From contig JABLUY010000158.1 of the NCBI GenBank assembly GCA_013306675.1, forward strand, positions 28,384 to 92,383: a DNA stretch of 64,000 nt, read 5' to 3'. This document shows, one piece after another, positions 17,071-59,620 of the stretch. Below the pieces are notes generated by a model. The model had not been told where the DNA came from. It searched no databases and worked only from the letters and a program-made list of their open reading frames with translations. How positions within the stretch are numbered: the stretch's first letter is position 1; every line of letters starts with the position of its first letter. The stretch is from Thraustochytrium sp. TN22. Lineage: Eukaryota; Sar; Bigyra; Thraustochytrida; Thraustochytriidae. The position numbers were made by a program, and so were the translations under genes.

Positions 17071-17835
17071 CTAGCCTTCTATCGTGGCATGGTGCTCGGC
17101 GGCGGCGCGAGCGTACTTGCTGCCGTGGACGATCTGGTAGTTGGCCTGGCGCTCGGCAAGACGCGGCAGGACGCCCGTAGGGGCGCCGGAGGCGAGTAGG
17201 GTGCCGTTGTCGTCGACGAGCACAAAGGTCGAGAAGTCCGGCGGGCACCAGACGAGCTTGAAGGCGATGGCGCTCTGGAACTGCACGTGCGCCACGTCGC
17301 GCGGCGGGTCCTCCCCGGCGCCCAGCTGGCAGGTGGTCCATGAGCCGCCAGGCCCGAGCTCCGGCAGGCTCGCTACGCGGATGCCTTCGCCCAGAGGGTT
17401 GCCAGGCGCGATGCCGGGGATGCTGCCGTCGTGCTCGGCGTCCGCGGTGTCCATGCGCATCGTCGTCAAATCCACGTGGTTGAAGTCATTGAAGGCGTGG
17501 CCCGTGTACCCCTTGCCCGGCGCCACCTCGCGCAGGTCGCGCAGGCCACCCGCCCAGAGCAGGCTGCGCCGCACCTCCTCCCAGTCCTTGGACAGCGCCT
17601 CGCGCGACAGGCTCGCCACGCGCTGCTGCACGCCGCGCAGCCTCTCCAGCGCCGTGCCCGGGTACTTGGCCTTCATGCTCGCCTCCGCGTCACGCTGCGC
17701 CTCGCACGCCGTCGCGCTCTCCAGCGGCGCCGATGCCAGCGCCGGCGCCAGCGTCAGCGCTAGCGCCAGCGCCAGCAGGCGCGCCGCGGTTGCCTGCGTC
17801 GCGGTCGCCTGCGCCCTGCCGCTCGCCGCACGCAT
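17071..17835 (-). CDS. Secreted conserved-looking hypothetical protein
   Basis: A 254-residue product from the ATG at 17835. An upstream in-frame ATG at 17892 would bury the signal peptide, so the internal start is preferred. Residues ~1-35 form a signal sequence (basic start, then a Leu/Ala-rich core ending ALAS). The mature part has three cysteines, C44, one in TTCQLG and one in KLVWCPPD, and a distinctive line GYTGHAFNDFNHVDLTTM, in which His, Asp and Asn could form a metal or active site. The C-terminal part is beta-like (FKLVWCPPDFSTFVLVDDNGTLL). No family is recognised. Its first 146 bases overlap, in a different frame, the 3' end of the neighbouring minus-strand ORF. Confidence 0.65.
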   Translation of the reverse strand: MRAASGRAQATATQATAARLLALALALTLAPALASAPLESATACEAQRDAEASMKAKYPGTALERLRGVQQRVASLSREALSKDWEEVRRSLLWAGGLRDLREVAPGKGYTGHAFNDFNHVDLTTMRMDTADAEHDGSIPGIAPGNPLGEGIRVASLPELGPGGSWTTCQLGAGEDPPRDVAHVQFQSAIAFKLVWCPPDFSTFVLVDDNGTLLASGAPTGVLPRLAERQANYQIVHGSKYARAAAEHHATIEG

Positions 17836-18799: not shown

Positions 18800-20433
18800 A
18801 GAGTTGCGTGCGTATGCGCGGCGTCAACAACGACCGAGTAGGATGAGGGCGCCGCGATGAGGTCGTCAGCCGAGCTGGTTGTCAGCGTGCTTCGCGAGCT
18901 GCCTTCCACGCCTAGAGCTGACGAGCGAGCTGCGCTACGCGGCACTGCTGCTAGCTCCTCCTCGTCTCCGCTGCGCGACACCTGCGCTGGCCGCTCGCGG
19001 CGGTCCTGCACCACGTGTCGAGCGCGCTCGTGGGACGAAGCGATGTGCGATGGGCACGAGGTGGCGCGAGGGATCCCGTCAGCGCACTGACTGCGCCTCA
19101 GCGCCTCGTGCAAGGCAGAAGCACGAGCGAGCTGCGTATGGCGCGCGCCAACACGCTCTGCACGCAGGCGCCACTTGCCCGCGGCTGCTCAAGTCGCCAC
19201 GGCGATCTGCGCCCTTCGCGCAGCGCGCCGAGGCGCGCCGAGGCACCCCTCGGCTTTTTCCCTCGTGCTTGCTCGCCCGCCACCGCTCGCGCCGCCGTGG
19301 CTGCGTCCCCCCGGTGTGTGTTCGCTTTTTCGGCCAGCGGGCCTTTGCCTCCAAGTGGACTTTTGTCGCGGCAAGTCAAGAGTTAAAGAAGAAAAGTAGA
19401 ACAAAATTCTGTGCAATCTTGCCGCTTGTCAGCATGAAGTCGGCGTCAGCCAGATTGAAATGAGACTCGGCAGAAGTTGCGCACAAAGACGCGTCGCGGT
19501 CTTGCCCACCAAGATCTGCGAGCTCTCTGATGATCGAGGCGCCTGAGAGCGCAGCCTTCCTTCGCAGCAAAGTACGAGCCGTGGGGCGTCGTCTGCTCCT
19601 GGCTCCTAGCGTGTGGGAAACGCTGCCTCGGCGCCGTCGGCGGAGCGCGACCCACAGTAGCGGCGAGTCAACCTGGGACGGGTCAAAGGACGCCACACTG
19701 AAAGTGGCGGACAGCGCGTTGGTCGCCGCGTGGATAGCCGTAGCCGGCGTGGCTGCGGCCGCGGCCGGAGCGGCCGGCAGCGCTGCCGATGCGACGTTAA
19801 GCGGGCCGATCTTTGCTGGCGGCCACAACTCACAGCCTCCAATGACTCGTCTCAAGGCGCGATTGCGTAGCGAGCAAGAAGTCCAGCTGGCTTCGCGGAA
19901 CTTCCCTCGCCAGTCTCGCCAGCAGGCGAGTGCTGGTTCTCGCTAGAGTCGAAGCCAGGCTTGCGAACCACTTTGCCAGCAGCAAAGCACGCAAGCGCTG
20001 AGCGAGCAGATAGTTAGCGTGCGGCAAAAGCCAGCGCAATGTCCTGTCTGTTCGGAGCTCTGACGCTGGACAAGTCTGGCGAGACTACGTGGTACTAACG
20101 TCAGTACTGACAGTGCGCTGGCGCGGCGACTCAGACTGAGTCAGACTCGGCCTGGGCGGGCACTGGGCGGGCACTGCGGCAGTCGGTCTGATAGTGACTG
20201 ATCAGAGTCTGTCTTGAGGCGGCAACTGCGGGCATGACATTTCCGAGTCGAGTCCAGAATCCGTGCCGAGTCCCCGGACCGCGGGTACTACTTACTTCTG
20301 CAGTTCAGTACACGTCTCGCCAGACGATGTTCAGTTTGGTGGCGAGCTTCGACGTAAAGCCTGAGGTACCGCCGGGAGAACGGCCGGGAGAAGGAGAGTT
20401 GCGATCGTTCTCCGTCCGGACAGACGACGCTCC
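18800..20433. other. Large divergent intergenic region
   Basis: A 1.6 kb region of lower coding potential between the minus-strand hypothetical gene and the kinase-fusion gene. Two overlapping antisense ORFs (19376-19855 minus, 159 codons; 19530-19946 plus, 138 codons) are Ala/Arg-rich and neither resembles a known family, so I do not call them. A direct repeat GCGGGCACT occurs twice near 20156-20176. CpG density falls compared with flanks. Confidence 0.4.
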
Positions 20434-23400
20434 ATGGGAGGCGAGCGCGGGGCGGGCGACGGCAGCAAACCAGCAACCTTGTCCTCGAAAAACAGCAGAC
20501 CCGCAAGGTACGCCTCGAAGATGAGCGACATGCCCGAAGACGTGAAGCTCGAAAAGGAGATCGCGAACGACATCGTCGAGGGCCTCAACAACGCGAGTCT
20601 TGGCGTCGCTGGAGCCTCCAACAAGTGGCTGCGCAAGCAGGCGCCCACGGCGTCCGGCGTGCAGCTTGGGGTCATTCTTCAGGTAGCGGGTGATCTACTC
20701 CATGGGATTGCCTCGGTGGGCGACAATGCGGCAAAGGCGGCGGAGATTGAAAAGAACGTGATTGACCGGTACGACAAGCTCAAGTGCGAGGAGATGAGGA
20801 AGACCTACGAGGCTGCCTTAACGAGGTGCGCCGATGAGTGGATTGGCCGCGCCGAGCACCCCGCAGCGGTTGCGTGTGCACTCAAGAAGGTCCTGCTGGG
20901 CGTCGTCCCGAACTGCAACGGGACTCGGGACGCGATCTACCAGGTCTGCAAAGACCTAGACGTGCACCTCGACGAGGACACGCGGCGCGCCCTTGATGCA
21001 CAGACCGAAGCCTTGAAGGCGATGAGCTTCGGGATCGCAGGTATCGGCCAGCTGCTTGGCGAGACGGAGCTCTCGGAGCTCACGATGCTCGACAAGCAGG
21101 GCGACGTTATGGACAAGCTGCGCAAGCTCCCCGGTGATCTTCTTGAGCAGGCGCTCGCAGTTGTGGATCTCAACTGGAATGGCAAGCAACTGCGACTGGA
21201 CATGAAGAAGGTACTCGACGTGCTGAACGACACACACGGCGCTCAGCGCGATGACGACGCCACCCCGTTCGAGCAGAAGCTTGAGGGCGCCGTTGCCGTT
21301 TGCGACGCCGTGAACACCATCGGCGTGATGCTTCACCAGCCCAGCCTACGCAGGGTTGCTGCGGTCGGCAAGAGTGCGGTCGACATCGCTGCTGCCACCC
21401 GGTCGCTCAAGCTAGCTGGCGAGCAAGGCACGCGCGCCTGGCTTGGTGCCGGCGCCAGCATTGTGACGGCCTCCGTCGGCGTCCTCCAAATGCTAGGCTG
21501 CCTCGGCAGCGACTGCGGCTCGAGCTACTTGGCCGACATGCTCGAGGCCATCTCGGAACAGGTGGAGCACCTTCGCAGGGAGATGCATCAGCGTTTCGAC
21601 GAGCTGGAGGTCCTCATGGAGGTGCGATTCAGTGAACTTCAGTACGAACTCCGTAACCATGCCATTCGCACTCGCATCGCGCTCGCCACCATCCATGTGG
21701 ACCTGCGGGAGCGCGTGGACGCGGAGTCCTACCGAAGTCTGGCGTATGCCACAACTCAGATGCTGAGCGAGCTGAAACGCTTCTGCAGCGAGGCATACCT
21801 TCTAAAGTCGGGCGATGATAAGGCGAGCTTCCTCGCAGCCGTTGCCGAGGGCGTCGGGCTGAGTCGCTCGGTCGGCCAGCACAAGTGGAACGGCGTTGCT
21901 TACCTCAACCCGATTAACGGAGCCGGCATTGCAGGAGACCACAGCCGCCTGCATATCGACGCCAGCCTGATGCGCTTCGCAGGCACAGAGCGCACTGGCC
22001 TATTTTTGGACGTCGTGCGTCTGCTCAAAGTACAGTGCGCGCTTCCTGACTCCCTTATTGCCCCGCAGACCTGGACCTCGCTTGTCCTGACCACATGCAG
22101 GAGGATTCGCGAGGTTCAGTGCAGCCCCAAGGGGCCGCGCTTCATGGTGGATCTCGGGGCTCAACTCGACACTCTCATCGAAGACGGCGAGGCCTTCCTG
22201 GCCTTCTGTGACACTGACACGAGCCTCCCGCTCGTGGCCAAGCTGGTGTGCGAGTCCCTCAAGAAAGACCTGCAGCAGCTGCTCGAGGAGGTCAACAGCG
22301 CGATCGCAAAGCTCAACAAAGGGGTGGTAGAAAAAGACCCCATGTGCCACGAAGGCCTCAACACAACACTGGCCGACATGCTCGCCGCGGGCGTAGAGGC
22401 GCGCACGGTGCTTGCGGGCGCCGCGTGGACCAACGACACCATCACACGGAAGAGCGCAAAGGCCGGCGCATATTTCAAATGGCCGACACCGGAGCAGTAC
22501 CTCAACGCGATGCCAGACTGGTCGTGGATGCCTCCGGTTCTCCGCGCGCTCGTCGCGTCACGGACTGTTTCTGTGAACGTGTCCGTCAGGACTGGTGTCG
22601 GCGAACTGATCGAGGTGCACCCATGGGAGCCGCATCGTGCCAGATATGTTGTTCACACCGCACAGAACATGGGCCTCCGGGTGGTCGTCACGATCCCGGG
22701 CGTCGACGCCTTCGAAATCTGGTCTCCCGCGACGGGAGAATACCCGCAGTATCCCCGCTCTCATTGGTGGGGCGCCAAGAACAACTCAGTCCCGCACATG
22801 CTCGACATGCGGCCCTGGAAGCTCAAGATCGGCAGGCCGCAGCCGGTGGATGAAGCGACCATTGCCAGACTTGAGGCCGAGTTGACCAGTGTGCTGCGCA
22901 AAGAACGACGCGACGCCAAGGAGAGGCTTCTGGAGCTCGTCGGCTCTGAGTCAGAGCTGCCTCGGAACATCAGAGCGAAGCGGATTGTGCTCGAGTTTAT
23001 CGCAAAGCTCAAGGGCGTGCCGCTCGACCGTCAGCTGCTCGCATCCCTGGACGCACCCGAGCGCTACGCTGAACTTCTGCGCGCCATGAACCCCGACGAG
23101 CTTGGCTTCTTCCCAGACATCAGCCCTGTGGTCCAGAGCGCGTGCGACGGCCTTGCTACCGTCGACGAGCTGCTTCGCAATGGACGTGGGGGCGTGGCCA
23201 GGTCGAGCGTTGTGACTGCGGTGGAGGAGGTGCGCCTGGTGCGAGCTGCATGCCTCAAACTTCCGTCTGCGTCGCTGGACCCCATCGAAGACCTCGGCGA
23301 ACCCCACGACGCGACCATGGCGGAGTTTCGCGGCACCGAGGCCAAGAAAGTCGATCGAGCTCGGTGGGCCCGCACAACGAGCGCTAAAGACGGTGCCCTC

Positions 23401-24249
23401 GAACTGCTCGGACGGAGCGAGCGGAGTACGGTCCACGTGGGCAGGCTGGAGACTGAGAAGGGCCTAGTGAAGGTCGCCATCAAGTCAACCTGTATCCAAG
23501 ACTCGGAGGATCTCGAGTCCCTCGCCAATGAAGTGCGCGCGCTCGTGCGCGTCGGTGACCACCCCCGGCTGCTTGGCTTCTACGGTTACACGATCACGCG
23601 GGATGCGAAAGGCGAGGAGCGCGTGGTATTGCTCCTGGAGCTCGGCACGGCCAACCTCGCCGCGTTATTGCAGCAAAGAGGACCTGAGCTCTCAGCGGAC
23701 GAGGCGCTGCGTTTCAGCAGGAGCATCATCGAAGGTGTTCGTGAGTGCCACGCAAGGGGTGTCGTGCACCAGGACATCAAGGCAGAAAACATCGTCATGG
23801 TGGGGAAGAGCGCGAAAGTTGCCGACTTGGGTAACGCGGGAATCCGTCGCATGGCGGCAACCACACGCACGATGCGGCGCCCAGTCCAGGCCGGTTTTTC
23901 TGCGTCGGCCGCGCCTGAGGTACTCAAGAAGTTTGAAGGCCGCGAGCAAGGCCACACGGTGCAGAGCGACGCGTACAGCCTCGGTCTCCTTCTGCTCCAG
24001 ATCCAGCTCGCACGCCTTGTCGTTCCTCTCTTTGGTCCCAGAGCCTCCGGTTCTCCACTGCCAGACGACTTTCTACAGGTCATTGCCATGTACGTAGGCA
24101 TCGACGACCCGTTCCAGCTGCACCCACGCATCGCCACTGCCTTGTGCCACAAGGGTATCGACAGCCGCGTCCTGCCGGCCATCAGGACCTGCCTCGAGGA
24201 GCGCAAGCTGCCATGTGCACTCCAGCTGCCGAGTTCGCCTGGCCCTTAG
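20434..24249 (+). CDS. Large helical protein fused to C-terminal protein kinase (non-RD, HQD)
   Basis: Encodes 1271 residues from 20434; an ATG at 20521 (A at -3) is an equally good start. The C-terminal ~280 residues are a protein kinase: glycine loop LGRSERSTVHVG, VAIK lysine K1017, alpha-C glutamate in LANEVRAL, catalytic loop HQDIKAEN with D1114 and N1119, DLG in place of DFG (D1131), APE as SAAPEVL, and SDAYSLG. All catalytic residues are present, so it should be active, but Arg of HRD is Gln (a non-RD kinase). Upstream are an N-terminal helical bundle (~33-250), a hydrophobic Gly/Ala segment (~335-357, GASIVTASVGVLQMLG), a heptad-rich coiled coil (~370-430) and a beta-like region around 710-800 (VSVNVSVRTGVGELIEVHPW). 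I recognise none of these. Kinase plus helical and hydrophobic regions suggests a signalling receptor or scaffold; this is inference. Confidence 0.88.
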   Translation: MGGERGAGDGSKPATLSSKNSRPARYASKMSDMPEDVKLEKEIANDIVEGLNNASLGVAGASNKWLRKQAPTASGVQLGVILQVAGDLLHGIASVGDNAAKAAEIEKNVIDRYDKLKCEEMRKTYEAALTRCADEWIGRAEHPAAVACALKKVLLGVVPNCNGTRDAIYQVCKDLDVHLDEDTRRALDAQTEALKAMSFGIAGIGQLLGETELSELTMLDKQGDVMDKLRKLPGDLLEQALAVVDLNWNGKQLRLDMKKVLDVLNDTHGAQRDDDATPFEQKLEGAVAVCDAVNTIGVMLHQPSLRRVAAVGKSAVDIAAATRSLKLAGEQGTRAWLGAGASIVTASVGVLQMLGCLGSDCGSSYLADMLEAISEQVEHLRREMHQRFDELEVLMEVRFSELQYELRNHAIRTRIALATIHVDLRERVDAESYRSLAYATTQMLSELKRFCSEAYLLKSGDDKASFLAAVAEGVGLSRSVGQHKWNGVAYLNPINGAGIAGDHSRLHIDASLMRFAGTERTGLFLDVVRLLKVQCALPDSLIAPQTWTSLVLTTCRRIREVQCSPKGPRFMVDLGAQLDTLIEDGEAFLAFCDTDTSLPLVAKLVCESLKKDLQQLLEEVNSAIAKLNKGVVEKDPMCHEGLNTTLADMLAAGVEARTVLAGAAWTNDTITRKSAKAGAYFKWPTPEQYLNAMPDWSWMPPVLRALVASRTVSVNVSVRTGVGELIEVHPWEPHRARYVVHTAQNMGLRVVVTIPGVDAFEIWSPATGEYPQYPRSHWWGAKNNSVPHMLDMRPWKLKIGRPQPVDEATIARLEAELTSVLRKERRDAKERLLELVGSESELPRNIRAKRIVLEFIAKLKGVPLDRQLLASLDAPERYAELLRAMNPDELGFFPDISPVVQSACDGLATVDELLRNGRGGVARSSVVTAVEEVRLVRAACLKLPSASLDPIEDLGEPHDATMAEFRGTEAKKVDRARWARTTSAKDGALELLGRSERSTVHVGRLETEKGLVKVAIKSTCIQDSEDLESLANEVRALVRVGDHPRLLGFYGYTITRDAKGEERVVLLLELGTANLAALLQQRGPELSADEALRFSRSIIEGVRECHARGVVHQDIKAENIVMVGKSAKVADLGNAGIRRMAATTRTMRRPVQAGFSASAAPEVLKKFEGREQGHTVQSDAYSLGLLLLQIQLARLVVPLFGPRASGSPLPDDFLQVIAMYVGIDDPFQLHPRIATALCHKGIDSRVLPAIRTCLEERKLPCALQLPSSPGP

Positions 24250-25282
24250 ATTGTCCAGCAGCCTTTGCAAAGGCCTGCGTAGCAAGTAGCCTCTTCACAC
24301 GTCCATCACAAACAATTCTCAAATTCTCTTGCTGCATAGCGAAACCTTGCGTACGTATTCCATCCGTAAACCTGCCTCGCTCCCACCTTACCTTGCGATT
24401 CGGGCCCAGCGCTATGTCTTTGAGCTTATTACGCATCTTTCAACCCAAAAGAGACCCGGTCAACTTGTTCTCTCGCCTTGTAGCAAACGACGCGCGCAAA
24501 CACAGCAACGCGCACCGCCATGCCTCGTCTCGCCTTGCTCGCCTGCGTCCTGCGGTCCGCGACCCAAACCGGGGTCTTCTTGGCCGCAACGCGCTGGCAG
24601 CCAGGCTCGCTGTTCCTTCCGTCACCTGCCCCTGGGTCGCGTTGCAGAGCGCTTGATCGGCAGCCGCACTCTGCGATGCACCTCCAAGCACAAAGCGGCT
24701 AGCCGCCGAGCCCACCGTGGCAGAACATCTCACTGCAGCTCCTCCTACCACACTGCAGCAGCAGGACTGACTCATGACCGTGACGGTGTCACGCGGGCAC
24801 CGTCCCGGCCAGCTGCAGCGCAGCCTGCCAGGCTGTGAGTGCGGCAGCGCGCCCCGGCCCGGCGCATAATTTGCAGAACCCGGAGCTGGCTGCTGCAGGC
24901 GAGGATCGCGCAGACGGTTGTGATGCGCGAGTCGGCGTCGGGTTCCTCGTTCGATGAGGCGGTAGCGTGTCCGCCGGCCTGACTGTGCGCGCAGTGGCCG
25001 ACTCGGATCCTGATCGTGCAACTGCGCGCGTGCCGTGTACAACCAGGCCCACTGCAGCCAGCTGTACGTAAGTTGGTACTCCTCGACCTACAACTCCAAG
25101 TCAGGGCGCTAGCGGCGACCCTGGGTCGACGGCCGTCGAGCCTGGGTTAGCGCCTGGTTCGCGCGGCACGCTGGTAGCAACGCGGGGCGCGGCGCGGCGC
25201 GGCGGCGAGCAAATCCCAAACGCCAAGAAAGTCTCGGAGGAGCGGACGGGCTGCGCCGAAGAGATAGATCACCGCGAACGAG
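24250..25282. other. Intergenic with left part of segmental duplication copy 1
   Basis: From about 24630 to 25282 this spacer is alignable by eye with 26638-27262 (shared blocks such as CCCCTGGGTCG, CACTCTGCGATGCA, GCTGCAGGCGAGGAT and GTCGACGGCCGTCGAGCCTGGGT). It is the 5' flank and promoter of the first VOC gene. 24250-24630 is unique and holds the kinase gene's 3' UTR. No gene is supported. Confidence 0.6.
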
Positions 25283-26317
25283 ATGTCCGTGCCGGCGGTG
25301 CCCACGGCCAAGAGCCTGAGCACGAGCGTGACCTTCAAGAAGGCAGGCGAGGCGCTCAAGGCGTACCGCGAGATGGGCGCCGAGGTCGGCGAAGAACTCC
25401 GCGCGGACAATGGGGCGCTCTTTTATGCGCAGGTGGTGCTGGCGGGGCGGGAAGTGATGGGCGCAGACGAGGTGCACTGCATGCCGGAGAGTGTGCCGCG
25501 TTACGAGGCGGTCAAAAAGGTCGGAGAGCTGGGGTCCACGACGGTGGATCTTATGCTTCAGTTCGAGACGCCGGAGGAGGTGGACACCATCTTTGCGCGC
25601 ACCAAGGCAGCCGGCTTCGACTCCGTTTGCGAGGCACAGGACATGTTTTTCGGGGATCGCTATGCCTGCATGGTGGACAGATTCGGCCAGAGCTGGAGCT
25701 TTGTCGCGCCGCTCCCGGCGGAGCGGGCCAAGGCCGCCTTGCAGGGCGCACCGCCCGGCGCGGACTTCCCGGACCCGGAACAGGCGCCAGCGCCGGGCCC
25801 GCCGTCGCCCGCGACAGGGCCCTCGGGCCCGGTCGCCACGAAGATGCTGCCATACATCTCCCTCAAGGACGCGCGCAAGGCGCTCGAATTCTACCAGGCC
25901 ACCTTTGACGCCGAGATCACGGCGCAGTGGGTGGTCAAGGGGAGCGGCCTGCTCATGTACGGCCGCCTGCGCATTGCCGGTCAGGAGCTCGTGTTGGTGG
26001 ACATTGCGTGTCGCGAGAAGAACCCCAGTGGTGCGCTCGCGCGCCAGGTGGTGGATGCTGGCAGCACCTACGTCACGCTCGGGCTCGAATTCGACGCTCC
26101 TGAGGACGTGGACGCCCTCTTCGCCAAGATGAAGGCCAGCGCCAAAACGATCGATCGATCGCCCGTCGACCTGTGGACCGGCGAGCGATACTGCAACCTG
26201 ATCGACGCGGGCGGTCTGTCTTGGTCACTCAGCGCGAGACTCCCAGCGGACCGCGCCGAGGCTGCCAAGGATGTCATTCCGGAGGAGTTTTGGGTCCCTG
26301 AGATGGAGAAGCTCTGA
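25283..26317 (+). CDS. Double VOC-domain (PhnB/glyoxalase-like) protein, copy 1
   Basis: Encodes 344 residues with two vicinal-oxygen-chelate (glyoxalase/bleomycin-resistance) modules of the PhnB-like type, at ~9-145 and ~185-325, joined by a Pro/Ala/Gly linker (~150-182). The second module is clearest: ALEFYQATFDAEI, then GLLMYGRLRIAGQELVLVD, then the DVDALFAKMKASA helix and DLWTGERYCNLIDAGGLSWSL, as in PhnB proteins. Module 1 keeps the same order (ALKAYREMGAEV, GALFYAQVVLAGREVM, EVDTIFARTKAAGF, FFGDRYACMVDRFGQSWSF). VOC proteins are metal-dependent isomerases, dioxygenases or resistance/binding proteins, and this subgroup has no fixed function. No targeting signal is visible. It is the first of a tandem pair; copy 2 is nearly identical. 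Confidence 0.85.
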   Translation: MSVPAVPTAKSLSTSVTFKKAGEALKAYREMGAEVGEELRADNGALFYAQVVLAGREVMGADEVHCMPESVPRYEAVKKVGELGSTTVDLMLQFETPEEVDTIFARTKAAGFDSVCEAQDMFFGDRYACMVDRFGQSWSFVAPLPAERAKAALQGAPPGADFPDPEQAPAPGPPSPATGPSGPVATKMLPYISLKDARKALEFYQATFDAEITAQWVVKGSGLLMYGRLRIAGQELVLVDIACREKNPSGALARQVVDAGSTYVTLGLEFDAPEDVDALFAKMKASAKTIDRSPVDLWTGERYCNLIDAGGLSWSLSARLPADRAEAAKDVIPEEFWVPEMEKL

Positions 26318-27262
26318 GGTCCTTGTCTTCGCGCGCATCCTCGCGCAGATCCTTGAGCGAGGCCCGCGGCCGCACACCAACGCACGTCATTTAGAAGTTC
26401 ATCAAGCAGGGGGCGCGACACGGAGCTGAGCTAGACGTCCGTCGACGGTACTTGGTCAACGAGAAGGCAATGAATCAATGTCCGCGTTCACACAGTATGG
26501 AGATGGGGTGTGAGGCTCGCGCATGCCCGGTCCAGGCATCAGATGCCGAGGAAGAGGATGAGCGGAATAGTGTTGCTCAGCAGAAAGCAAAACACTGTTC
26601 ATCAAGTTCTCTGTGCTTCATCACTTGTTGACGTGCCCCTGGGTCGTGTTGCAGTGCGCTTGATGCCGCACTCTGCGATGCAACTTCAAGCGAAGGCGAA
26701 GCATGAAGCAGCTCGCCGCCGAGGTGCGTCATGTACCACCACAGCCCACCGCAGCAGAACAAACTTCCTTACCACGTCCTTACCACTGCCATTGGGTCAA
26801 GCTCTAGCTAGCTAGGCTACACAGCATGCAGTAGTAGTTACTGTGGCCGCCCTGGCTCGGCTCAGAACTTGCAGAACCCCGGGGCTGCTGCAGGCGAGGA
26901 TTGCGCCGGCGGCGATGATGCGCGAGCCGGCGTCGGATTCCCTGTTCGGACTCGGCCGAGCGATGAAAGGCAGCACGGTGCAGTGCTCGCCTCGGATCTG
27001 GCCGCAGGTTGCGGAGTGCATGTGCATGTGCGGTTGTCCAGCCAAGACCGCCAGGCCCACTGCAGCCAGCTGTAGGTACTAGTAGTAGTAAGTCAGGGTG
27101 CTCGCGGCGACCCAGGGTCGACGGCCGTCGAGCCTGGGTCAACGCGCCGGCGGCACGTTGGTGGCAAGGCGGGGCGCGGCGCGACGACGAGCAAATCCAG
27201 AACGTGAAGGAAAGTCTCGGGAGAGCGGGAAGGGCTGCATCGACGAAGTCACCGCGAACGAG
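26318..27262. other. Spacer between the two VOC genes, containing the duplication junction
   Basis: Composed of the 3' flank of copy 1, one degenerate 44-bp unit (~26410-26450), a fragment of the tail-anchored gene (26539-26594), the junction (~26595-26637), and the copy 2 5' flank (26638-27262). An in-frame extension of the copy 2 gene to 27098 exists but is not conserved in copy 1 as protein, so it is treated as leader. Confidence 0.6.
26539..26594 (-). pseudogene. 3'-terminal fragment of the tail-anchored gene
   Basis: Read on the minus strand, this gives FCFLLSNTIPLILFLGI followed by a stop. The intact gene ending at 29146 has the same C-terminal tail with one substitution. The flanking non-coding DNA (AGGCATCAGATGCCGAGGAA, GGGGTGTGAGGCTCGCGCAT) is also shared, so the fragment came with the segmental duplication and not by retrotransposition. 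It has no upstream coding part and is non-functional. Confidence 0.85.
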
Positions 27263-28297
27263 ATGTCCGTGCCGGCGGTGCCCACGGCAAAGAGCCTGAG
27301 CACGAGCGTGACCTTCAAGGACGCAGGCGAGGTGCTCAAGGCGTACCGAGAGATGGGCGCCGAGGTCGGCGAAGAATTTCGCGCGGGCAATGGTGCGCTC
27401 ATGTATGCGCAGGTGGTTCTAGCGGGGCGGGAAGTGATGGGTGCGAACGAGGTGCACTGCATGCCGGAGAGTATGCCGCGTTACGAGGCGGTCAGCAAGG
27501 TCGGAGAGCTGGGGTCCGCGACGGTGGATCTGATGCTTCGCTTCGAGACGCCGGAGGAGGTGGACACCATCTTTGCACGCGCCAAGGCAGCCGGCTTCGA
27601 CTCCGTTTGCGAGGCACAGGACATGTTCTTCGGGGAACGCTTTGGCTGCATGGTGGACAGATTCGGCCAGAGCTGGAGCTTTGTCGCGCCGCTCCCGGCG
27701 GAGCGGGCCAAGGCCGCCTCGCAGGGCGCACCGCCCGGCGCGAACTTCCCGGACCCGGAACAGGCGCCAGCGCAGGTGCCGCCGTCGCCCGCGGCAGGGC
27801 CCTCGGGCCCAGTCGCCACAACGATGCTCCCATATATCTCCCTCAAGGACGCGCGCAAGGCGCTCGAGTCCTACCAGGCCACCTTTGACGCCGAGATCAC
27901 GGCGCAGTGGGTGGTCAAGGGGAGCGGCCTGCTCATGTACGGCCGCCTGCGCATTGCCGGGCAGGAGCTCGTGTTGGTGGACATTGCGTGTCGCGAGAAG
28001 AACCCCAGTGGTGCGCTCGCGCGCCAGGTGGTGGATGCTGGCAGCACCTACGTCACGCTCGGGCTCGAATTCGACGCTCCTGAGGACGTGGACGCCCTCT
28101 TCGCCAAGATGAAGGCCAGCGCCAAAACGATCGATCGCTCGCCCGTCGACCTGTGGACCGGCGAGCGATACTGCAACCTGATCGACGCGGGCGGTCTGTC
28201 TTGGTCACTCAGCGCGAGACTCCCAGCGGACCGCGCCGAGGCTGCCAAGGATGTCATTCCGGAGGAGTTTTGGGTCCCTGAGATGGAGGAGCTCTGA
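27263..28297 (+). CDS. Double VOC-domain (PhnB/glyoxalase-like) protein, copy 2
   Basis: Encodes 344 residues from the ATG at 27263, which matches the copy 1 start exactly; the frame is open to an ATG at 27098 that I regard as leader. The domain plan is as in copy 1. I count about 21 amino-acid differences from copy 1 in residues 1-203 but only one (Glu for Lys next to the C-terminus) in residues 204-344, where the DNA differs at only about three bases. Such a sharp step points to recent gene conversion or selection on module 2. Differences in module 1 fall in and around likely pocket strands (Y127F, A128G, F47M), so substrate range may differ. Function is as uncertain as for copy 1. Confidence 0.85.
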   Translation: MSVPAVPTAKSLSTSVTFKDAGEVLKAYREMGAEVGEEFRAGNGALMYAQVVLAGREVMGANEVHCMPESMPRYEAVSKVGELGSATVDLMLRFETPEEVDTIFARAKAAGFDSVCEAQDMFFGERFGCMVDRFGQSWSFVAPLPAERAKAASQGAPPGANFPDPEQAPAQVPPSPAAGPSGPVATTMLPYISLKDARKALESYQATFDAEITAQWVVKGSGLLMYGRLRIAGQELVLVDIACREKNPSGALARQVVDAGSTYVTLGLEFDAPEDVDALFAKMKASAKTIDRSPVDLWTGERYCNLIDAGGLSWSLSARLPADRAEAAKDVIPEEFWVPEMEEL

Positions 28298-29145
28298 GAT
28301 CTTTGTCTTCGCGCACATCCTCACGCACATTTTCGCGTGAATTCAAAACGCCCTGCCTGGGAAGATGGAGGTGCTCTCTCAGCCTTTGCGCAGATCGAAT
28401 GCTCAAACACGTGCCAACGCCGCATGAGGAACTGAGAGCCAGTCGGAAAAGAAATAAATGTCCACGTTCTCAAGTGTGATCCGCGTCTGATCGAGACCCG
28501 CGGCAGCCAACTGACATCGTTTTGAAGTTCATCAAGCAGGGGGCGCGACACGGGAGCTGAGCTGGGCGTCTCGTCGACACGGAGCTGAGCTGGGCGTCTC
28601 GTCGACGGTATTTGGTCGCGACACGGAGCTGAGCTGGGCGTCTCGTCGACGGTTTTTGGTCGCGACACGGAGCTGAGCTGGGCGTCTCGTCGACGGTATT
28701 TGGTCGCGACACGGAGCTGAGCTGGGCGTCTCGTCGACGGTATTTGGTCGCGACACGGAGCTGAGCTGGGCGTCTCGTCGACGGTATTTGGTCGCGACAC
28801 GGAGCTGAGCTGGGCGTCTCGTCGACGGTATTTGGTCGCGACACGGAGCTGAGCTGGGCGTCTCGTCGACGGTATTTGGTCGCGACACGGAGCTGAGCTG
28901 GGCGTCTCGTCGACGGTATTTGGTCGCGACACGGAGCTGAGCTGGGCGTCTCGTCGACGGTATTTGGTCGCGACACGGAGCTGAGCTGGGCGTCTCGTCG
29001 ACGGTATTTGGTCGCGACACGGGAGCTGAGCTGGGCGTCTCGTCGACGGTATCTGATCAACCAAAAGGCAATGAATAAATGTCCGCATTCACACAAGTAT
29101 GGAGATCAGATGGGGTGTGAGGCTCGCGCATGCCCGGTCCAGGCA
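28298..29145. other. Convergent spacer, mostly minisatellite
   Basis: Between the stops of the VOC copy 2 gene and the tail-anchored gene. The first ~250 bp is unique, with the 3' UTR. The rest is the 44-bp array and its flank. The open minus-strand frames through the array cycle through all three phases of the repeat and are not genes. Confidence 0.7.
28553..29053. repeat. 44-bp minisatellite, about 12 units
   Basis: A direct tandem array of a 44-bp unit containing GAGCTGAGCTGGGCGTCTCG, then TCGACGGTATTTGGTCGCGACACG. Most units are identical; one reads TTTTTGG for TATTTGG, the first spacing is shortened (about 28 bp), and the end units carry an extra G (CGGGAGCTG). The TCGTCGAC/GTCGACG part contains a SalI-type palindrome GTCGAC in each unit. 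44 is not a multiple of three, which argues against coding. Confidence 0.95.
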
Positions 29146-57769: not shown

Positions 57770-59223
57770 CACGGCCCGCGTGCGCGTCCGCATGTACCGC
57801 CGGGGCCGAGCAACCGCTGGCTAACCCGCCGGCGCGTGGGCTGGTTGGCTGGCGCGCGGCGCCGAGTGCCTGGTCGGGTTGCGGACGGCGTCCTCCATCG
57901 GGGCCGCCGTGAAAGTTCAGCCATAGCCAGGCCTAAGGCTAGTAGAGGTAGCTCGCTCTACGAAGCTAGCTTAGAGCTAGCAGGAGCGCTGGCGTGCACC
58001 GCGGCGCATAGTTACCATGCAGCACACATGGGCTGTGCACCCAGCTTTTCGCACAGCACAATGTCGACACAGCGCTTCGCATTTTACTTCAGAGGTTGAG
58101 CCTGGCACCGAGTGACAAACTACTTCACGAAGTTCACAGGCACCGGTGGACCGCGGCGCGTCGTGGCACGCGCAGCCTGCTTGGTGGCTCGTTGGCGCCT
58201 CGGTACGCCGAATGCTGTGGCGCAGCCGCCGCGAAGTGTGCATGCGAGCCGTCAACGCAATTGACCACCACTGTAGCCCGGCCAGTGGCCCGCCAGCTCC
58301 CAACTTGAACTTGCAGGCTGCAAATGCGATGACGAGCGCGTGGGAAAGAGCTGAGACTCACCGTCAAGAGGGAGCCATTCTCTTTTCCGCTTGCTCTTGA
58401 CGCACCCGGGTGCGGCGCAGGATGTGCGTGGTCCCGAAGATGTCGTGTCGCTCAGCTTGAGAAAACGTGTGCCAGCTCCGGATGTTGAGTAGACCGCGAA
58501 GCGAGCATGTACGTGCGTATGCGAGACATCTGTTGAAGAGCCATCAGCCCACAATGCACTGCGTGCCCAGGCGCAGGGTGTAGGTATGACCAGGAGAGCG
58601 AGAGATCTCAAAGATCTCGCCACGCTTGGAGTCAGCCTGCGCCTCAAGTCGTGGCAGGCCCGAACAAGCAACGTCGCACCTCACTGCGCACGAGGTCGGC
58701 AATAGATTCCTGTAATCTTTCACAAGACGCAGCGAGCTTTTGGGATGAAGCGATTGCATGCAGCCATCGAATTTGTTTGATGCTTGCCAAGAGCAACGCG
58801 CTCGGACGGGGTCGACGTACACTTGAGCTGCAGCGAACTGCGCCGGCGACCAAGTCCAAGATGCCCTTTTCCAAACACGTTTCCCGTGGGGTGCATGCGA
58901 GCCGCCACGGGGAACTCCTCCTTCTTGCAGCATTTCTTGTCAACCTTGCGTAGTTTATCCTCCTCGGTGTTGCAGACTGCCACGCTGCGCAAGCTTCGGA
59001 AACCGCGCGCGATCTGTTGCGCGTTCATCATGAGCTGATCCTCGTAGACCCAGGTCTCCAGCTAGCCCGAGCCTTTCCTCTCACTGCAGCCTCTCGTTCG
59101 CCAGGCTCGACATTGCCCTTGCGAAACTTCGCCAGCGGAGCCGCCTTGGCCATTCTATCTTTGGCCAACGCGCTCGATGAGCAGCTGCGGCGTCGCAGAC
59201 CTATTCCAGTGGCTGGCGAGCTT

Positions 59224-59620
59224 GAGCGCCGGTCGGCGATCGAGCTTCTGCAGGTCGACCGAGCTAGCGAGCGAGCGCCGCACGAGCCCAAGCGCGATCT
59301 CTGGGTCGACCTCATCTGATTCCGCTGAGTTGGCAAGCCGAGGTGGCAGGCGAGCTCTTGAGCGCCGGTCGGCGATCGAGCTTCTGCAGGTCGACCGAGC
59401 AAGCGAGCTAGCGCCGCACGAGCCCGAGCGCGATCTCGGGGTCGACCTCATCTGATTCCGCTGAGTTGGCAAGCCGAGGTGGCAGGCGAGCTCTTGAGCG
59501 CCGGTCGGCAATCGAGCTTCTGCAGGTCGACCGAGCTAGCGAGCGAGCGCCGCACGAGCCCGAGCGCGATCTCGGGGCCGACCTCAACTGATTCCGCTGA
59601 GTTGGCAAGCCGAGGGTCGA
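59224..59620. repeat. 136-bp direct tandem repeat, 3 copies
   Basis: Units start at 59224, 59360 and 59496 with GAGCGCCGGTCGGCGATCGA (third copy GGCAATCGA) and end with CTGAGTTGGCAAGCCGAG. Copies differ at only a few positions (for example GCGAGCTAGCG for CTAGCGAGCG, CTCTGGG for CTCGGGG). It lies ~400 bp before the SSRP1 start, in the presumed promoter. Confidence 0.95.

Follow-up and report, generated by a model that had tools for sequence, protein, structure and literature searches.

Gene structure and coding evidence

We analysed a long gene at positions 20434..24249 (+ strand) of a 64,000-nucleotide stretch of the Thraustochytrium sp. TN22 genome (the whole stretch is hereafter the window; it lies within contig C64 of a 37.9-Mb assembly of 453 contigs, which served for all own-genome searches). 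The gene starts with ATG, has no intron within its open reading frame (ORF), and encodes a protein of 1271 amino acids (aa) in which a C-terminal protein kinase domain follows about 950 residues of no recognised family. An earlier interpretation made from the letters alone (hereafter the sequence-only reading) had proposed this ORF, and the coding evidence agrees with it. The longest open frame at the locus has 1294 codons, a length to be set against the 440 codons that were never exceeded when the + strand of 19434-25249 was simulated 300 times with a first-order Markov model. GC content at codon positions 1, 2 and 3 is.667/.439/.760 across the ORF; when the ORF is cut into 300-bp blocks (13 in all, with a shorter one at the end), position 2 is always the lowest, and position 3 is the highest or tied with position 1 in all blocks but one (23134:.73/.54/.72). 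The 900 bp on either side of the ORF show no codon periodicity (.617/.64/.64 and.63/.63/.607). Because the length of the open frame exceeds the simulations and the codon signature stops at the ORF borders, 20434-24249 is a single coding gene and not a chance frame of GC-rich DNA. Its third-position GC content (.76) is near the low end of that of 19 other long ORFs of the window (.607-.964), which were chosen by length and some of which are probably not genes.

A divergent kinase domain with HQD and DLG motifs

Residues 991-1192 (23404..24009, +) were assigned to the protein kinase domain by Pfam (PF00069, E 5.5e-22, 78.8 bits; PF07714, E 2.9e-18, 66.6 bits), by an AlphaFold2 model, by Foldseek and by reading of individual residues. 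The latter identified K1017, E1033 (the alphaC Glu), H1112-Q-D1114, N1119, D1131-L-G1133, APE at 1160-1162 and D1179, including the replacements of HRD by HQD and of DFG by DLG that had been noticed from the sequence. The domain accordingly has the fold, Lys, alphaC Glu, HxD, Asn, DxG and APE of eukaryotic protein kinases, together with an atypical G-loop and alphaG-alphaI region.

The model was built for residues 835-1271 using an alignment of 30 kinases taken from other records, and its predicted local distance difference test (pLDDT) values, averaged by block, were 87-95 at about 995-1134 and 85 at alphaF (1175-1194). All 50 Foldseek matches listed for this model were protein kinases (FGFR, MerTK, RET, TNIK, TTK, JAK and others), with template modelling (TM) scores by target length of 0.55-0.68, and the top PDB sequence matches were MINK1, MAP4K4 and TNIK. 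As judged from the model, the kinase fold is sure, and the kinase group is not. The domain is probably catalytically competent though very divergent.

When used as sole query, the kinase retrieved one bacterial locus among GTDB representatives (L028, whose best segment is 35% identical) and no relative in viral contigs. All PADLOC matches shown (the best 25 of 33, with mad6 at the top, 2.4e-24) fall inside the kinase, and we did not accept them as a sign of a defence role. Similarly, 11 of 12 NCBIfam matches lie inside the kinase, the exception being CC0731 (residues 97-131, E 0.065).

The N-terminal region matches no described family

The sequence-only reading had found no known family for the part preceding the kinase, and our profile searches, including those of its two halves, gave no confident match. 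Neither outcome that it had named as refuting, a confident assignment to an ordinary family or a reliable structure devoid of the bundle, was seen. For residues 1-985, searches of Pfam, NCBIfam, PADLOC and PDB sequences all came back without a significant hit. The Pfam matches are all below cut-off (best Mating_N, 0.019; several over the coiled coil, e.g. Apolipoprotein), PHROGs searched with three segments gave nothing better than 0.042, residues 1-439 gave four TFIIS matches among PDB sequences at chance level (E 0.41-1.3), and residues 435-985 gave none. Viral contigs (searched with 1-439 and 435-985), phages, plasmids and GTDB representatives contained no relative of the same region; the contig scans used six peptide patterns each and so would reveal close relatives alone, and these collections are not where eukaryotic relatives are expected. 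The own genome was the sole eukaryotic genome searched, and the orphan status suggested by these comparisons is provisional.

Residues 1-419 (20434..21690, +) constitute a region predicted to be mainly helical. Save for a 32-bp match at its end, no own-genome relative was found for it beyond one match at chance level. The latter (C21, E 0.08), which we took as chance, sits in a long ORF that we take by eye to resemble a dynamin-type GTPase; a further own-genome match lies on C49 (E 1.26). An AlphaFold2 single-sequence model of residues 1-539 placed helices over most of 35-473, with a mean pLDDT of 40 and a predicted TM score of 0.24; helix in this stretch is plausible, and the helical bundle of the sequence-only reading is putative. 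A coiled coil had been proposed as well, and a heptad pattern was recovered at residues 367-394 (21532..21615, +), where weak below-cutoff Pfam matches also fall; in our crude heptad scan it ranks second, residues 77-104 scoring higher. The predicted beta-like region fits residues 661-780 (22414..22773, +), which belong to no family and are rich in V/I/Y/F/W/T (20 and 22 of 60), composition being the whole basis of this assignment. By an entropy measure, 0.16 of residues 1-960 is of low complexity.

A hydrophobic Gly/Ala segment noted at about residues 335-357 did not withstand scrutiny as a special feature. Over the 19 residues 339-357 (21448..21504, +) the Kyte-Doolittle (KD) hydropathy is 1.65, barely above the threshold of 1.6 that is customary for a membrane helix and below that of the kinase alphaF (1183-1201, KD 1.79), and 73.8% of 2000 shuffles of residues 1-985 attain this value. 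The segment was accordingly rejected as evidence of a membrane segment, and shuffling revealed no hydrophobic stretch beyond chance anywhere in residues 1-985. The signal peptide and transmembrane features of receptor kinases were assessed by hydropathy alone; the ten best segments all begin at residue 78 or beyond.

These results also bear on the view that the protein belongs to a known kinase family, whose N-terminal part would be an ordinary regulatory region common to thraustochytrids and too diverged for the libraries that we used. Such a view is helped by the restriction of our eukaryotic searches to one genome, and by the large stramenopile-specific kinase subfamilies, along with novel accessory domains among kinases, already described in oomycetes in the available sections of PMC3019232. 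The present gene resembles these oomycete tyrosine kinase-like (TKL) expansions in being a stramenopile kinase of lineage-specific type, and differs in that many of them carry transmembrane domains, whereas no segment beyond chance is present here. As no library scanned matches residues 1-985 convincingly, we regard this explanation as rather unlikely.

Comparison with other kinases of the same genome

A PF07714 search of the assembly gave 148 match rows (rows, not genes, with the best candidates scored), 44 of which have an open frame of at least 1000 aa. Motifs were surveyed at the 30 loci with the best PF07714 scores. Among the 27 that were readable, two are non-RD (that is, lacking the Arg of HRD; both HFD), five have DLG, one has both, and none has HQD; since this sample comprises the most canonical kinases, unusual motifs may be more frequent in reality. 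The HQD and DLG motifs are accordingly less distinctive than the sequence-only reading had suggested. The own-genome locus at C199:42889-43671 is another non-RD kinase, with HFD and DLG, and its ORF encodes a further kinase domain.

Fourteen of the 30 loci contain long kinase ORFs, and we scanned 13 of them within loci extended by ±1500 bases, leaving aside L058, which sits at the end of a contig. Nine of the 13 carry additional domains at E ≤0.001, namely Arm-type repeats (in four), Ank, SAM, V-ATPase H-type and further kinase domains (in two); above the Pfam cut-offs the count is seven, SAM and V-ATPase H falling below. The remaining four (L039, L042, L050 and L057) share with the window gene a long open frame and the absence of an extra Pfam domain at E ≤0.001, which makes the contrast with the window gene smaller. 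They differ in the composition of the upstream sequence, which is 49, 93, 58 and 71% low-complexity, respectively, versus 16% in the window gene. Overall, the upstream low-complexity fraction is 0.38-0.94 in 11 of the 13 ORFs, the exceptions being L036 (a multi-kinase ORF, 0.14) and L049 (0.0, over 31 residues); downstream it is 0.0-0.15 in three Arm-type ORFs. In none of the 13 do the two properties of the window gene, no extra domain and sequence that is not low-complexity, occur together; this comparison is a rough yardstick, since the scanned flanks do not extend as far as the complete ORFs.

The window gene is therefore unusual among the long kinase ORFs of its genome, and is not unique in lacking a recognisable second domain. 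The description of a non-RD kinase fused to some 950 unrecognised residues holds, and what distinguishes the fusion from the 13 other ORFs is that these residues are unrecognised yet not low-complexity. It is a real, divergent and locally unusual kinase fusion, the joining of a kinase to a lineage-specific region being of an already known kind.

A kinase-less partial paralog

A search for paralogs, which had been proposed as a check, retrieved one partial paralog, on contig C424 of the same genome. Its ORF encodes 527 aa (C424:125528-123945, -). At the protein level the similarity covers residues 435-943 and then, past a stop at the junction and in another frame, residues 1172-1271; at the DNA level it covers approximately residues 409-418, 464-941 and 1173-1271. 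The paralog is consequently devoid of about the first 408 residues and of the kinase core. The duplication takes in flanking sequence as well, namely window 17437-17752 (74% identity) and glyoxalase-type sequence (71-72%), showing that the gene was duplicated along with part of its neighbourhood. The element at 17437-17752, whose counterpart is C424:127335-127640, precedes the kinase gene in the window and its paralog on C424 alike, within overlapping putative ORFs, and a glyoxalase-type fragment lies beside the paralog at C424:127886-128146.

The middle region common to both copies (residues 464-941; 21823..23256, +) is 93% identical at the DNA level, with a very uneven distribution of changes: among 107 differing columns, 100 precede position 22571, none falls in 22571-23106 and seven follow 23106. 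The resulting 536-bp tract (22571..23106, +) is 100% identical to the paralog within diverged flanks, and its pattern suggests that gene conversion or a similar exchange is likely. It could also reflect a collapsed assembly repeat. This possibility, together with the fact that the paralog holds the middle and end alone, would favour an artefact in which two adjacent genes, or a misassembly, are read as one ORF. The open frame, far longer than any in the simulations, the unbroken coding signature and the presence of the upstream element beside both copies make such an artefact very improbable.

The ratio of nonsynonymous to synonymous substitution rates (dN/dS) between the copies is 0.57 over residues 464-712 (bootstrap 0.37-0.90, Fisher p 0.017), 0.66 (0.34-1.39) over the piece past the paralog's stop, and 0.60 (0.42-0.86) for both pieces joined. 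All three indels in 21823-23256 are multiples of three. In one copy at least, the shared stretch 464-712 evolves under weak constraint.

Comparison with MLKL and other kinase fusions

The sequence-only reading had likened the general layout of the protein to that of MLKL-like cell-death proteins, an analogy for which we found support in this layout alone. Pfam contains HeLo-, MLKL- and RPW8-type models, and none of them was matched even at E values as high as 10, nor is there any such PDB sequence match. The N-terminal region of MLKL is about 125 aa plus a brace, against about 950 aa here. MLKL consists of a four-helix bundle, a two-helix brace and a pseudokinase, as outlined in the accessible text of PMC11476962. 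The window protein resembles the animal and plant forms described there in combining a helix-rich N-terminal part with a C-terminal kinase-type domain. It differs from them in keeping the catalytic Lys, Asp, Asn and Asp that the C-terminal pseudokinase of animal and Arabidopsis MLKL would not be expected to retain, and in showing no sequence similarity. The HeLo-like bundle finds no counterpart in Pfam or PDB sequences, the corresponding model having a pLDDT of 40, and hydropathy gives no support for membrane permeabilisation. We accordingly did not class the protein with MLKL, the retained catalytic residues being the one defining point of clear disagreement; a literature search for thraustochytrid MLKL likewise found nothing.

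A broader version of this idea would see the protein as an MLKL-like or kinase-fusion immune or cell-death protein, with a membrane-disrupting or death-inducing helical N-terminal region restrained by the kinase. The helix-rich N-terminal part (of low confidence), the borderline hydrophobic segment and the C-terminal kinase are in line with it, and the likely conversion tract, shared with a paralog whose retained ORF has no kinase, may recall receptor gene families. In the sections available of PMC10951266, the wheat protein Pm13 is described as a four-helix MLKL_NTD fused to a receptor-like kinase (RLK)/Pelle kinase that keeps its catalytic residues, and it is because of this precedent that a small probability is retained. 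Like this Triticeae kinase-fusion protein, the window protein joins an N-terminal part, helical in Pm13 and probably so here, to a kinase with conserved catalytic residues; unlike it, no recognisable MLKL_NTD was found and the kinase group is not placed. The lack of HeLo-, MLKL- and RPW8-type matches, the chance-level hydrophobicity, the several-fold greater length of the N-terminal region and the distance of its first ~440 residues from the kinase make such a function improbable. The HQD loop agrees with the non-RD catalytic loop of innate-immunity kinases, a state that is not specific because HFD occurs in two of the 27 own-genome kinases read.

Genomic surroundings

Ten other ORFs of the window were scanned, eight of which match Pfam (MAP65, a PIG-O/G-like phosphodiesterase, myosin, two of glyoxalase type, GH5, LtrA and ferric reductase) and two of which match no Pfam family; these surroundings resemble those of a normal nuclear genome. 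The two glyoxalase-type (vicinal oxygen chelate) genes are in tandem at 24850-28330 and 88% identical over ~1.5 kb. Tandem repeats occur at 28575-29052 (44 bp, 10.8 copies, 99% matches, with a related single copy at 26411-26457) and at 59209-59615 (136 bp, 3 copies, 95% matches).

Elsewhere in the assembly, which is evidently eukaryotic by its gene content, ten acyl-carrier domains follow one another every 327 bp at C124:29160-32300 (-), nine with an identical score, inside one 3044-aa ORF of polyunsaturated fatty acid (PUFA) synthase subunit A type. In eukaryotes, this tandem arrangement has been identified mainly in thraustochytrids, according to the portion of PMC9702510 available. No chlorophyll-binding protein was found in the own genome. 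The gene content thus agrees with a thraustochytrid origin.

A candidate lineage-restricted signalling kinase

We favour, with a probability of roughly 45%, the interpretation that the gene encodes a soluble signalling kinase restricted to its lineage, whose regulatory region would be helical and coiled-coil. The 950-residue N-terminal part, with its putative helical, coiled-coil and beta-rich stretches, would most likely oligomerise and bind a ligand or partner. Assembly would bring kinase domains close to each other, and this proximity, rather than an RD-type activation-loop switch, would activate the kinase; regulation that bypasses the classic switch is in keeping with a catalytic loop of non-RD type. 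What would be the second copy of the duplicated gene, without the N-terminal end and the kinase core, may then have had one tract recently made identical to the window gene. The coding signature throughout, the kinase fold, the low-complexity fraction of only 0.16, the constraint between copies and the absence of a hydrophobic stretch beyond chance are all consistent with this interpretation.

A number of observations weigh against it. The G-loop reads G993-R-S-E-R-S-T-V1000, which retains one glycine of the three in the usual GxGxxG motif; the activation segment is poorly modelled (block pLDDT 47-71); and from about residue 1195 block pLDDT drops to 35-55, leaving the alphaG-alphaI end unmodelled, so that the end of the C-lobe (residues 1201-1271; 24034..24246, +) appears unusual at low confidence. 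For these reasons kinase activity is uncertain, and the claim that all catalytic residues are present stands for K1017, D1114, N1119 and D1131, and not for the two lost G-loop glycines or the last ~75 residues, which do not model. In a tree of 32 own-genome rows, our form of the suggested kinome placement, the window kinase is alone at the tip of a branch 3.3 changes per site long, with no supported neighbour. This tree contains no named reference kinases, which limits what it and the higher PF00069 than PF07714 score can say of TKL membership, and the long branch could also mean decay of the kinase. Furthermore, a dN/dS near 0.6 is weak constraint, not assignable to either copy without an outgroup, residues 1-985 have no relative outside the own genome in the sets searched, and solubility is not proven because 339-357 does exceed the customary KD threshold.

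The principal rival reads several of these points differently: a decaying kinase or pseudokinase would act as a scaffold, with its binding regions mattering and phosphorylation lost. The missing glycines, the long branch, the unrecognisable C-lobe end and a paralog that keeps the middle region without a kinase core would all suit such a scaffold. Decay would not, on the other hand, favour the retention of the Lys, alphaC Glu, HxD Asp, Asn, DxG Asp and APE together, and we consider the scaffold a less probable, if serious, possibility than an active signalling kinase.

A more far-reaching proposal, which we regard as highly speculative, is a protist-specific kinase-fusion switch in defence or cell fate, where a new helical effector or sensor domain would be controlled by a proximity-activated non-RD kinase, the kinase-less paralog would serve as a decoy or partner, and gene conversion would diversify the system. 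Literature searched at overview level contained no description of a kinase-coupled switch in this lineage, and the N-terminal region, should it prove to be a new fold with a sensing or executing role, would represent one. Whatever its function, an unplaced kinase joined to a large unrecognised partner region, with a natural kinase-less copy in the same genome, is a clean case that offers an easy handle for dissecting the two halves.

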